Below, piece after piece: positions 51,746 through 59,438 of a DNA stretch of 64,000 nt. The stretch is from Methanospirillum hungatei (GTDB lineage: Archaea; Halobacteriota; Methanomicrobia; Methanomicrobiales; Methanospirillaceae). The notes beneath the pieces are model-generated. The model was not told where the DNA came from, ran no database searches, and saw nothing but the letters and a program-made list of their open reading frames with translations. The translations under genes were made by a program, and so were the position numbers. Numbering within the stretch: the stretch's first letter is position 1; each line of letters starts with the position of its first letter. The DNA is taken from NCBI RefSeq assembly GCF_019263745.1, contig NZ_CP077107.1, positions 2,108,001-2,172,000 on the forward strand. The letters run 5' to 3'.

Positions 51746-52948
51746 TCAGGGTTGTGATAGTTTCATCCGTATGCTCCCGGTTGGACACACCAGTGAGCAG
51801 AGTGAACAGGTATCACACCGATCAGGATCCAGGATTACCCCTTCCCTGGTAAGGATCAATGCCTGATATCCACCATCACGACATGAGATTACACATTGAC
51901 CACATATTTTACAGGTTTTCACATCGATGACAGGAATGAGCCTGTTTTTCCGGTCAAGGCTCTCATGACTGGTGAGATGTGGTAAGGCTTTTCCCCTTAT
52001 CTCATCCGGACTGCGGTACCCTTTTCTTTGCAGATATCCGGACAGACCGGCGAGCATTTCCCTGATGATCCCTGCTCCTCCCCACATGACTGCGGTACAG
52101 ACCTGAACTGCTGACGCTCCGACCAGGAGGTATTCCGTTGCATCCTCAAAAGAACTGACACCTCCTATTCCTATGACCGGAACATTAGTACTGCGGGCAA
52201 CTTGTGATACTACCCGAAGCCCAATCGGTTTTACTCCTGGTCCAGAATATCCTCCATAAGTAGAGTATCCGGCAACGGACGGTGCAGGCTCAAATGTCTC
52301 GATGTCAACACCCATAAGGCTCTGGACGGTGTTGATAGCTGATATCATATCTGCTCCACCTTCAACTGCAGCCTGTGCTATCGGGACAATATCAGTAACA
52401 TTCGGGGTGAGTTTTACTATGAGCGGAATTGAAATTGCATCCCTGACATATCCGGTCAGAGTTCTAACAAGATCTGCATCTCCTCCGATTGCAGCCCCAA
52501 GTCCCCGTTCCGGCATCCCATGAGGGCAGGAGAAATTAAGTTCGATGGCTTGGACTCCTGCAAATGCCACCTGTGAAGCAAGATGTTGCCATTCTTTCGG
52601 ATCCATTCCGGCCATGATACTGGCAATCAGGATTTTCTCTGGAAACTCTTTTCTTATCTGTGGGATCTCATCCAGCCAGTATGATACGCTCTTTTTGCTC
52701 AGGAGTTCGATATTTTCAAATCCGAGAAGATGTGACTCCTGATCTTTCCAGGCTGCAAACCGAGGGGATACATCCTCGATAACCATCCCGTCTGGTGTGA
52801 TTGTTTTAATGACCGCACCTCCCCAGCCAAGTGAGAAAGCATGCCGAATTTGATCTGCACTGGCAGTTGGTGGTCCGGATGCAAGAATAAACGGATTTTC
52901 AAGTGTTAAAGAGCCAAGGGTCGTCGGCAGGACTGGAACAGGTACCAT
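51746..52948 (-). CDS. Dihydroorotate/dihydropyrimidine dehydrogenase-like protein with ferredoxin tail
   Basis: A 400-aa protein. The FMN barrel (about residues 1-310) begins PTTLGSLTLENPFILASGPP and has the substrate-loop LNFSCPHGM, VKLTPNVTD, NTVQSLMGVDIETF and IGIGGVSSFEDATE. The C-terminal part (about 330-395) has two 4Fe-4S motifs, CKICGQCVISC and CDTCSLCSLVCP. This is the PreA-type layout, used for pyrimidine reduction with an NAD(P)-binding partner PreT or with ferredoxin. No partner is nearby. It could instead use dihydroorotate; the catalytic Cys (FSCPHG) fits class 1B/PreA. Confidence 0.85.
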   Translation of the reverse strand: MVPVPVLPTTLGSLTLENPFILASGPPTASADQIRHAFSLGWGGAVIKTITPDGMVIEDVSPRFAAWKDQESHLLGFENIELLSKKSVSYWLDEIPQIRKEFPEKILIASIMAGMDPKEWQHLASQVAFAGVQAIELNFSCPHGMPERGLGAAIGGDADLVRTLTGYVRDAISIPLIVKLTPNVTDIVPIAQAAVEGGADMISAINTVQSLMGVDIETFEPAPSVAGYSTYGGYSGPGVKPIGLRVVSQVARSTNVPVIGIGGVSSFEDATEYLLVGASAVQVCTAVMWGGAGIIREMLAGLSGYLQRKGYRSPDEIRGKALPHLTSHESLDRKNRLIPVIDVKTCKICGQCVISCRDGGYQALILTREGVILDPDRCDTCSLCSLVCPTGSIRMKLSQP

Positions 52949-55835: not shown

Positions 55836-56963
55836 GTGAAAGAATCAAAGAACAGATCTTTTCTCTCTGAAAAGCGACTGTCTCATATGGGTTTTGATGC
55901 TGCAAAGTGTGATTTTTCCCGGTGCAAAGGGGAATGCCTGACAAAGTGTCCCTATGTCTCATACAATGAAAAAGAGACAAAAGAGCAGATAAGTGCGTTA
56001 ATAAAAGGGGAAATGGCTCCAATTCTTAAGGAGTGTATCACCTGTGCTGCCTGTAATGAATACTGTCCACTTGGAGCAAATCCCTGGGACCTGATATTAT
56101 GGAGACAGGAGCAGACGCAGGTATTAGGGATTCCGAGCAATGCAAAACCCGCTTCTGACTGGCTGGTAAAACCAAAGATTGTCAGACCAGGAAAGCCTGG
56201 TGGTGCGTTAATTTCTCTGTGTGGTATCTATGAGGTTGTTCCACAGCAGGAATTTTTAACTGGCATTATGTTTGATGAGACCACACTCATCGGAGGAGGG
56301 GATTATTGTTGCGGGTTTACTGAGACTCATCTTGGACGGGGCTCCAGACCTTATGAATTTCTTCCAACCCTGGTCAAAAACCTGGCTGATGCAGCAAAAG
56401 AATACGGAGTTTCTGAAATTGTATTCACACATGATGCCTGTTATAATGTTCTGACAACCGTCGCAATCCAGGATCGCATTGAAGTTCCTTTCAAACCGGT
56501 TCACATCCTTGAGTATATCAGAAACTGGCTCCGTGATCACAAAGACAAAATTACTCCGCTAAACATGAAGATGGCATATCAGGGAGGGTGTACTACGCGT
56601 TATGCAGCAAAGGAGGGTGAGATCTGGAGAGACTGGCTTGAGGAAATACTCAGTCTGATTGGCGTTACCTGTGTTGAAGACAAAAGAAAGTACACCGGAG
56701 ACAATCGGCTTTGTTGTTGCTGCAGTATCTTTCACACCCAGCATGAACGGGCAATGAAATTCCAGCATATGAACATTCAGGATGCAATAGACGCCGGTGC
56801 TGAGGGGTACTGTTTCATCTGCCCTGCGTGTGTTTCAGTAATGCGGATGACCTGTAAAGAGATGAATCTGACACCATATTACATCACACAGCTCGTTAAA
56901 ATGGCTCTGAAAGAAGATTTAGGAAAAGCCGGAACTGCCGCATTTGGTTACCCGGTTAAGTAA
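55836..56963 (+). CDS. HdrD/GlpC-like Fe-S protein with CCG domains
   Basis: 375 aa from the GTG at 55836 (AGGA just upstream; an ATG at 55887 is possible). N-terminal cysteines are in [15 protein letters not shown], then [14 protein letters not shown], which together look like two 4Fe-4S sites. The C-terminal half has CCG-type motifs: YCCGFTETH with HDACYN, and QGGCTTRY with [11 protein letters not shown] and [11 protein letters not shown]. These resemble the active-site-proximal Fe-S region of HdrB/HdrD. It is the first gene of a four-gene plus-strand cluster with two flavin-fold proteins and a ferredoxin. A thiol/disulfide or electron-bifurcating-type reaction is inferred; the substrate is unknown. 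Confidence 0.8.
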
Positions 56964-57028
56964 GAGAATAAAATAGTAAACTATTATTCTCTGCATATCC
57001 TGTTTTCATATAGAAATGGAGATGGAAC

Positions 57029-57514
57029 ATGGTTACATTCACCAATGAGATGAAAGAAGCCTTACGGGTTCCAGGGAAGGGTGGAAGTCTTATTCATATG
57101 GCTACCTCCAGCCTTGACGGTAAACCAAATATCGCTGCCATGAGATTTGTTGCAACGCATGGTGATGATAAAATTCTGATTTCAGATATGTTTCTGCTCA
57201 AGACTAAGATGAACCTGAAGGAAAATCCTGAGTGTAGTATCGCAATCTGCCATCCGATGGATGCTGGGCGTGACTGGGTTTTCAAAGGGAAAGCAGTTGA
57301 TATTGAGTATGGGTTCCCCCCGGAATTTGACTGGTACGGAGTTAAGGCCAAGGAAATTTTAGACAAATGGGGAGACTGGGCAACACTTGAACCACCAAAA
57401 GAAGTCCCACCAGATATTGTATTTCCAAAACCTGCCCAGCGGGGTGTTGTCGTCCTGCATGTCGAAGAGATTTACTCTATTGAGAAAGGAAAAACCGGAG
57501 AGCGTATCCAGTGA
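57029..57514 (+). CDS. PNPOx-fold flavin-binding protein 1
   Basis: A 161-aa protein of the pyridoxamine 5'-phosphate oxidase-like split barrel: SLIHMATSSLDGKPNIAAMR, then KILISDMFLLKTKMNLKENP and CSIAICHPMDAGRDWVFKGK, ending with EEIYSIEKGKTGERIQ. The start has GGAGATGG upstream. The family binds FMN or F420 or haem. It is 65 nt after the HdrD-like gene and 10 nt before the second PNPOx-fold protein. Confidence 0.85.
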   Translation: MVTFTNEMKEALRVPGKGGSLIHMATSSLDGKPNIAAMRFVATHGDDKILISDMFLLKTKMNLKENPECSIAICHPMDAGRDWVFKGKAVDIEYGFPPEFDWYGVKAKEILDKWGDWATLEPPKEVPPDIVFPKPAQRGVVVLHVEEIYSIEKGKTGERIQ

Positions 57515-57524
57515 GGTGTAAAGG

Positions 57525-57989
57525 ATGTCAATAATTCTGACTGAGCGGATGAAAGGCTGGATTGAGCTGATGGGATGTCACCTGTGTGTTGCCACTCCGG
57601 AAGGGGTGCCACTGGTTACCGTTTCACGGTTCGCCAGAGTTACAAAGCCTGATCAGGTCGCGTTTGCGATGGAAAAAGGAGAGATTGGCCTCATTGAGGC
57701 TGCTGTTACCAAGAATCCATGGGTCGCGTTTGGGGTATCCAGGCAGGGAGGTATTCGTGCGGCTTACCAGTTTAAAGGAAAGGGGAAAATCCTGAAGTCA
57801 GGCCCGGAATTTGAATCACTCAAACAGATGGCCGAAGGAATCGCAACCGATGCAGTTCTGGTTGTAGATCTGGCCGAATTGTATTGTACAAAACCTGGTG
57901 CAGAGGCAGGTCAGCGTCTGGATGTCATGGCTCCTGATGCAGTTGATGCATGGGAGAAGGCACGCTGGACTGACATTCCTGGCAAATAG
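57525..57989 (+). CDS. PNPOx-fold flavin-binding protein 2
   Basis: A 154-aa protein, another split-barrel PNPOx relative: MGCHLCVATPEGVPLVTVSR, FAMEKGEIGLIEAAVTKNPW, AAYQFKGKGKILKSGPEFES and a C-terminal acidic stretch. Shine-Dalgarno GAGGTG is present. It is distantly related to its upstream neighbour and could pair with it as a heterodimer (inference). Cys18 and Cys21, in the MGCHLC stretch, are unusual for the fold and could be redox-active. Confidence 0.8.
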   Translation: MSIILTERMKGWIELMGCHLCVATPEGVPLVTVSRFARVTKPDQVAFAMEKGEIGLIEAAVTKNPWVAFGVSRQGGIRAAYQFKGKGKILKSGPEFESLKQMAEGIATDAVLVVDLAELYCTKPGAEAGQRLDVMAPDAVDAWEKARWTDIPGK

Positions 57990-58027
57990 ACAGATATAAT
58001 AATATCTTTTTTCAACCTTTTCCCGGA

Positions 58028-58306
58028 ATGGGAGAAGAAGATACCGGGAAGACACCAAAAAAATTCCCCTGGTTTGAACCCTTTGCTTGTGAGGGCTGCG
58101 GAGACTGTGTTTCAGTATGCCCTACCGGTTCAGTTGAACTTCTCGGGAAAGAGGATCAAAAAGTTCCAAAGGCGTGGGTTGTAAGCCCTGACACCTGCAT
58201 CGGGTGTGGGAAATGCGCCAAAGCCTGTATTGTCGGTGCCGTACAAATGACCAGTTATGTGGACATGGCAAAAAAGCGGTACAAGGAAGAACCCCGCCCT
58301 GTCTAA
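58028..58306 (+). CDS. 2[4Fe-4S] ferredoxin
   Basis: A 92-aa protein with two classical cluster motifs, CEGCGDCVSVCPTGS and CIGCGKCAKAC. It is the last gene of the cluster and likely supplies electrons to or from the HdrD-like protein. It overlaps the 3' end of convergent mch by 4 nt. Confidence 0.9.
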   Translation: MGEEDTGKTPKKFPWFEPFACEGCGDCVSVCPTGSVELLGKEDQKVPKAWVVSPDTCIGCGKCAKACIVGAVQMTSYVDMAKKRYKEEPRPV

Positions 58307-59259
58307 ATCTTATCGTATATAGCGTTAAAGGATTCGAGGAGAACCTCCTCGTTTAACCTGCCGAAATGGTATATTTTTCCGGTAGTACAGTCATTAACGG
58401 TTAGTTCGGCTGGTGAAAATCCGAGATAGGAACCTATATTGACAAAGTCATAGTTTGCATTTTTAAATAATTCGTAAAATGGTCTTCCGTACATCTCAGA
58501 GTTATCTGATGTGATCCTGGAAAACTCGTCAGAGTATAGTCGTGTGGATATCATGACTGATCCATAATAGATATTACAGTCATTAGTAACCCCCATCGCC
58601 TGCTCAAAGGTATTTTTTATTGGAGCAACAGGCGACCTTCCGGCAGCATTTACGATATTTGAGAGATCATATCCCATATCCTCGAGTTTATGCATTGCCA
58701 TCGTGACAATTCTTCCGGATATTTGAATAGATCCTACAATACTCCGGGTAGATGCAACAAGAGCATAGAGATTTTTGGGTTTTACTCCACACTTTTCTGC
58801 TATATATGAACATATGTCTTCATCTGGAAGAACACCCGCTTCAAGAGCAATTATTGCAATATCTGAAGTGTCGTGATACTGAATCGCCTGATACGTCCCT
58901 TTGGGTTTTAAGGCAAGTGCCCGTGCTGGTCCGGACCCCATCGCAAAAAAGTTATTTCTCCTGATTACCCAGCCTGCTTTCTGAGAACCAAGACAGGCAA
59001 TAATGGGGTGTTTTACCGTCAGATGAACGAAAGGAAACACCTGGCCGGAAATAGGCTGATGGACAATGGTTGGTTCAATTAATCCTCCGGCGCAGACTTT
59101 CAGGAACTGTAGGCCGGCTTCATGACACCCATTCTCTCTCACACCACAGTCGATCACAGTTGTCCCATTTTCAAGGGTGTGGACTTTAATACCCAAAATC
59201 TCAGCGTTGCGCATCATATCGAGCACAACGGGAAGGGCATATGTATTAACACTAATCAT
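58303..59259 (-). CDS. mch: Methenyltetrahydromethanopterin cyclohydrolase
   Basis: 318 aa from the ATG at 59259; an upstream GTG at 59289 would add 10 residues not seen in the family. It begins MISVNTYALPVVLDMMRNAE and has VIDCGVRENGCHEAGLQF, then CLGSQKAGWVIRRNNFFAMG with GSGPARAL and IVNAAGRSPVAPIKNTF. Mch converts N5-formyl-H4MPT to methenyl-H4MPT in the CO2-reduction branch of methanogenesis. Stand-alone placement is usual. Confidence 0.96.
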   Translation of the reverse strand: MISVNTYALPVVLDMMRNAEILGIKVHTLENGTTVIDCGVRENGCHEAGLQFLKVCAGGLIEPTIVHQPISGQVFPFVHLTVKHPIIACLGSQKAGWVIRRNNFFAMGSGPARALALKPKGTYQAIQYHDTSDIAIIALEAGVLPDEDICSYIAEKCGVKPKNLYALVASTRSIVGSIQISGRIVTMAMHKLEDMGYDLSNIVNAAGRSPVAPIKNTFEQAMGVTNDCNIYYGSVMISTRLYSDEFSRITSDNSEMYGRPFYELFKNANYDFVNIGSYLGFSPAELTVNDCTTGKIYHFGRLNEEVLLESFNAIYDKI

Positions 59260-59438
59260 ACAGATCAGGGATATTGTTCTTCCAATCACTGGTTTCTAAA
59301 AAATAAAATGGCATCGATTTTCCCTCATATGTATATCCTTCCATTTTCTCTCCTATCTGATCTGATAACCAGACTGAATCTGTCACTCTGTTGTGAAAAT
59401 TCCACAATTTCTTTATCGTCTCTGCACGATGTGTTGAT

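Follow-up and report, generated by a model that had tools for sequence, protein, structure and literature searches.

A conserved and mobile five-gene unit was found in Methanospirillum hungatei and other Methanomicrobiales, and this result is well supported. Four genes on one strand encode an iron-sulfur protein of the HdrB/CCG type, a pair of split-barrel proteins and a 2[4Fe-4S] ferredoxin, and a convergent fifth gene, mch2, encodes a second homologue of methenyl-tetrahydromethanopterin (methenyl-H4MPT) cyclohydrolase (Mch) in which the glutamate at position 186 is replaced by threonine. Our tentative interpretation, to which we give somewhat less than an even chance, is that the five genes form one unit and specify an undescribed oxidoreductase acting on H4MPT or on its one-carbon or oxidised forms. 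The features lie in the window, which is the whole stretch of 64,000 nucleotides that was analysed, taken from a host genome consisting of a single contig of 3,393,136 bp:

55887..56963, + strand: gene 1, HdrB/CCG-fold Fe-S protein, 358 aa (open reading frame list, profile, ortholog starts and fold match)
57029..57514, + strand: gene 2, split-barrel (PNPOx) protein, 161 aa (profile match; K-T-x2-N...NP motif kept, with K58, T59 and N62)
57525..57989, + strand: gene 3, divergent split-barrel protein, 154 aa (AlphaFold model and weak profile match; flavin-phosphate motif lost)
58028..58306, + strand: gene 4, 2[4Fe-4S] ferredoxin, 92 aa (two [4Fe-4S] motifs in the profile search)
58303..59289, - strand: mch2, second methenyl-H4MPT cyclohydrolase homologue (TIGR03120 match; convergent with the cluster; Glu186 replaced by Thr)

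The four open reading frames listed in the first-pass annotation (for a CCG Fe-S protein, a 2[4Fe-4S] ferredoxin and, between them, two split-barrel proteins, closely spaced on the + strand) were all present, with intergenic gaps of 65, 10 and 38 bp in the window and comparable closeness in relatives. Two details of that listing were revised. The start of gene 1, given as 55836, lies 51 bp downstream at 55887, which is the start in every ortholog, and the list was one gene short, as mch2, which shares 4 bp with the end of gene 4, is also part of the unit. The true start of mch2 is probably at 59265 or 59259. A gene for a dihydroorotate/dihydropyrimidine dehydrogenase-like protein with two [4Fe-4S] motifs at its C-terminus is also located near the cluster (51746-52948, - strand), and it was absent beside the cluster at the other loci examined.

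Among 185 Methanomicrobiales genomes that were 80% complete or better, the cluster was detected in 27, and it was found nowhere outside these Methanomicrobiales genomes. Besides Methanospirillum and Methanoculleus, a few other genera are represented among the 27. A scan of named genomes for gene 1, using search patterns derived from close relatives, likewise returned Methanomicrobiales only, and a plasmid collection gave no match. Gene 1 was present in 25 of the 185 genomes and was accompanied by a second Mch in 23 of these; the remaining two (G444 and G428) have their cluster at the end of a contig. In a further two genomes (G435 and G437) the start of a contig holds genes 2-4 or 3-4 together with mch2, which brings the number to 27. 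The same gene order was observed in three GTDB families with gene 1 proteins 66-93% identical, which excludes chance. At every locus with enough sequence, genes 1-2-3-4 were followed by convergent mch2 at a spacing of -4 to approximately 1,075 bp; the genes are therefore not scattered in relatives, and the proposed check of looking for the cluster in other genomes gave a conserved order. No intact Mch2 without the cluster was found among the 185 genomes, and the cluster without Mch2 was found only at contig ends. In cluster-free genomes, second Mch matches other than one weak match (G442) turned out to be ordinary Mch in split or duplicate form (G035, G477 and G455), a divergent other paralogue (G039, G044 and G059) or, in G434, a broken relic.

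On a tree of Mch1, well-supported branches require at least 10 changes in the presence of the cluster and parsimony gives 15, these counts being approximate for a single-gene tree of 69 hand-picked genomes. The block was thus gained or lost approximately 10-15 times at least. Between two Methanoculleus genomes (G171 and G040), dS was 0.15 for gene 1 and 0.10 for mch2 vs 1.0 for mch1, and the block was exchanged horizontally as one piece in this genus. In a further Methanoculleus genome (G434, a fragmented metagenome bin), the interval between thiM and mrp lacks the four genes and retains a broken mch2 relic (contig C115, L216:5060-5739) with threonine still encoded at position 186. Loss of the four genes together with breakage of mch2 is what would be expected if mch2 were useless without the cluster.

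The mrp gene, whose product is an Fe-S carrier ATPase of the Mrp/ApbC type, lies next to the cluster in Methanoculleus (L216:5974-6816, L230). M. marisnigri (G171) has it besides another Mrp copy. An empty-site comparison based on this flanking gene found that the cluster-free Methanoculleus tested carry only the other Mrp copy (70-72% vs 82% identity). In one genome of the Methanospirillum family (G016, family f1; L014/L219), Mch2 groups with Methanoculleus, as a result of either horizontal transfer or a contaminating contig.

The product of mch2 is a full-length homologue of Mch (PDB 4gvq, 1qlm; 441.7 bits against TIGR03120, cut-off 228.8), 52% identical to the Archaeoglobus fulgidus enzyme, and mch2 is the second mch of the host genome, the first being located at G000:C1:865949-866881. 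At position 186 (A. fulgidus numbering) all 24 full-length Mch2 proteins have Thr, whereas all 70 other Mch have Glu, as do three further Mch from other families. Six positions that are near-invariant in other Mch are changed in Mch2, and 186 alone shows one uniform replacement; Arg183 and most residues conserved in other Mch are retained. Of the pair Glu186 and Arg183, Mch2 thus keeps only the arginine. From structural work on the A. fulgidus enzyme, we take Glu186 to be catalytic in Mch. This role is supported by the deposited proteins 4gvr and 4gvs, in which the PDB sequences show Gln at the same site, a variant made by the depositors. Mch2 is therefore probably no longer a normal cyclohydrolase, although Thr186 together with Arg183 might still allow slow cyclohydrolase activity. 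The gene is under strong purifying selection and is not decaying (dN/dS = 0.036 between Methanospirillum species, with dS near saturation). The 24 full-length Mch2 sequences formed one clade (SH-aLRT 99), apart from the Mch1 of their hosts and sister to the Mch of a different family (f12) within the phylum (support 90), indicating that Mch2 was probably acquired from outside rather than duplicated locally.

The genome paper of M. hungatei JF-1 counts three mch genes (Mhun_0022, 0444 and 2384) as pathway enzymes (PMC4704411). Judging from its map position, Mhun_2384 should be mch2. Its place in that list and the retention of R183 and most other conserved residues would agree with Mch2 being an ordinary isoenzyme, with Arg183 and Thr186, for other growth conditions, with the cluster unrelated to it. 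The strict co-occurrence of Mch2 with the cluster, and the single replacement in all Mch2 of a residue invariant in the other Mch sampled, make this very unlikely. Enzyme-dead paralogues often turn into regulators. Mch2 might accordingly sense the pool of one-carbon-H4MPT, or respond to it as an allosteric subunit, and so gate the electron-transfer module, and mch2 is indeed a separate transcription unit; however, no DNA-binding or signalling domain is encoded, and we rate such a function as highly improbable, lowest of the alternatives considered.

Gene 1 matched the CCG profile PF02754 just above threshold (21.9 bits, cut-off 20.6), and in a structure search its predicted fold matched HdrB (E 4e-9) and LutA (model 9a6l); the AlphaFold model used had a mean pLDDT of 67.8 and was poor over the N-terminal cluster region. 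The N-terminus carries two [4Fe-4S] motifs (C8, C13, C17, C21 and C50, C53, C56, C60) with all eight cysteines invariant, and this two-cubane segment resembles HdrC. The second CCG domain has the full set of five cysteines (C235, C276-C277, C312-x2-C315), in common with HdrB/HdrD (PDB 5odc, 8rvu). The first domain, in contrast to HdrB/HdrD, is degenerate: in nearly all relatives CC is replaced by A/F-C and CxxC by HxxC, while in Methanospirillum the CC is retained and CxxC is still replaced by HxxC. The protein thus combines an HdrB fold and CCG domains with one complete five-cysteine motif in place of two. The conserved block contains neither an HdrA (FAD) nor an HdrE (cytochrome b) partner gene, the partners being instead the split-barrel proteins and the Mch paralogue. 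Gene 1 was rejected as a heterodisulfide reductase on account of its degenerate first site.

A disulfide might nevertheless be reduced by gene 1, with electrons supplied by ferredoxin via flavin, so that the module would be a thiol/disulfide reductase or serve general electron transfer and mch2 would be a linked passenger. The HdrB/LutA fold, the one complete non-cubane cluster site and the position of mch2, convergent and outside the operon, are in favour of this. On the other hand, HdrB uses two CCG sites where gene 1 has one intact, and mch2 has kept its linkage in three families and is decayed where the cluster has been lost, and we consider this explanation unlikely. The first-pass annotation had described an undescribed redox enzyme with a substrate not evident from the window and had suggested HdrD-like thiol/disulfide chemistry or electron bifurcation. 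An undescribed redox module is supported by the conserved order, the restricted distribution and the lack of any description in the open-access papers searched. The suggested chemistry gained no support: gene 1 retains a single intact CCG cluster site out of two, and the block encodes no bifurcating flavoprotein of the HdrA, EtfAB or NfnAB type. As for the substrate, a lineage-specific second Mch that is tied to the cluster and has lost the catalytic Glu points to a tetrahydromethanopterin compound.

LutA/GlcF-type CCG subunits of lactate and glycolate oxidation have the same fold as gene 1, but the cluster encodes no FAD-oxidase partner. Distant homologues of gene 1 (26-39% identity) were found in relatives of Archaeoglobus (26-36% identity) and in two other families, and several of them adjoin GlcD-like FAD-oxidase genes, named here from sequence starts. 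At the loci inspected, these homologues were never beside split-barrel or mch genes; genes 2, 3 and mch2 were absent beside those of the Archaeoglobus relatives.

Gene 2 matched PNPOx_N (30.4 bits, cut-off 28.1), and K58, T59 and N62 of the basic K-T/S-x2-N...NP motif, presumably the flavin-phosphate holder of the PNPOx family, are invariant. Gene 3 of the window remained below the cut-off for PNPOx_N, and 11 of 15 orthologs matched at E<=0.1; its AlphaFold model (pLDDT 86.7) is a split barrel by Foldseek, nearest to HupZ, Desulfovibrio FMN-bp and F420-binding proteins, the last including mycobacterial ones. In the alignment rows inspected, the motif was kept by gene 2 and the other relatives shown but was absent from gene 3, which instead has conserved cysteines at C18xxC21 (C18 near-invariant) and C121. 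Although they share the fold of these FMN/F420 proteins, genes 2 and 3 form subfamilies of their own that are restricted to the cluster: gene 3 scored 276-311 bits inside the cluster and at most 60 elsewhere in the phylum, and gene 2 orthologs are likewise far apart from the phylum's other split-barrel proteins.

From these sequence features, we infer that the products would form a complex acting on a pterin, and the cofactor as well as the route and direction of the electrons are proposed on the same basis. Because Mch2 keeps the Mch fold and lacks Glu186, it most likely serves to bind the pterin and does not add water to it. Gene 2 would hold a flavin, perhaps as a heterodimer with gene 3, whose own flavin-phosphate site is lost. 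Electrons would most likely move between the gene 4 ferredoxin, the clusters of gene 1 (cubanes and a single non-cubane), the gene 2 flavin and the pterin on Mch2. The likeliest reaction would be interconversion of methenyl-H4MPT+ and methylene-H4MPT outside F420, or re-reduction of dihydromethanopterin. It is possible, though doubtful, that methenyl-H4MPT, or H4MPT in another form, is held by the Glu-stripped cyclohydrolase while electrons are exchanged with ferredoxin through flavin and the non-cubane cluster, as an F420-independent redox entry to or exit from the central C1 pathway.

Several observations weigh against a single unit. Lying on the opposite strand, mch2 does not share a transcript with the four genes, and genes that are linked may be lost or transferred jointly even if they have no common function. 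The closest gene 1 homologues in Archaeoglobus relatives lie beside FAD-oxidase-like genes and not beside Mch. M. hungatei has the core Mch, Mtd and Mer (PMC4704411), and the module is thus not needed to fill a gap in the pathway.

The model for the known archaeal dihydromethanopterin reductase, DmrX (TIGR02700), gave no match over cut-off in any of 44 Methanomicrobiales genomes, indicating that in these genomes the last step of H4MPT synthesis is carried out by an enzyme that this model misses. DmrX performs iron-sulfur and flavin chemistry on a methanopterin, as is proposed for the module, but its architecture differs and its close sequence relation to the cluster is limited to ferredoxin motifs. 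As a special case of the oxidoreductase that we favour, the module might repair methanopterin by re-reducing oxidised or damaged forms such as dihydromethanopterin, with Mch2 as the binding subunit. The lack of TIGR02700 matches in the 44 genomes agrees with such a function, but cluster-free genomes are without them too, so that the cluster is no general substitute, and we regard repair as distinctly unlikely. The cluster was rejected as a replacement for the known reductase, TIGR02700 being missing with or without it and no correlation being seen.

Hydrogenotrophic methanogens are regarded as having a complete C1 pathway, with Mch among its simplest steps. The existence of a mobile five-gene module in which a strongly selected, Glu-less Mch is paired with dedicated Fe-S and flavin-type carriers suggests a methanopterin redox step missing from current pathway maps. 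In JF-1 the extra mch is annotated as one of several pathway enzymes, and among open-access papers nothing beyond the genome paper was found on the JF-1 locus tags or this gene set. The module is present in the model strains M. hungatei JF-1 (G002) and M. marisnigri JR1 (G171), so the idea is directly testable. A link to 2-propanol use was discarded, as JF-1 has the cluster yet does not use 2-propanol (PMC11346949).

A different and very divergent Mch paralogue was observed in genus g20 (family f4, Methanomicrobiales; L226:5350-6288 and L227:5258-6301). Its neighbours are unlike those of the cluster, it lacks both Arg183 and Glu186 (GTVHLAGL.AATAL), and it is approximately 33% identical to A. 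fulgidus Mch over 249 residues.
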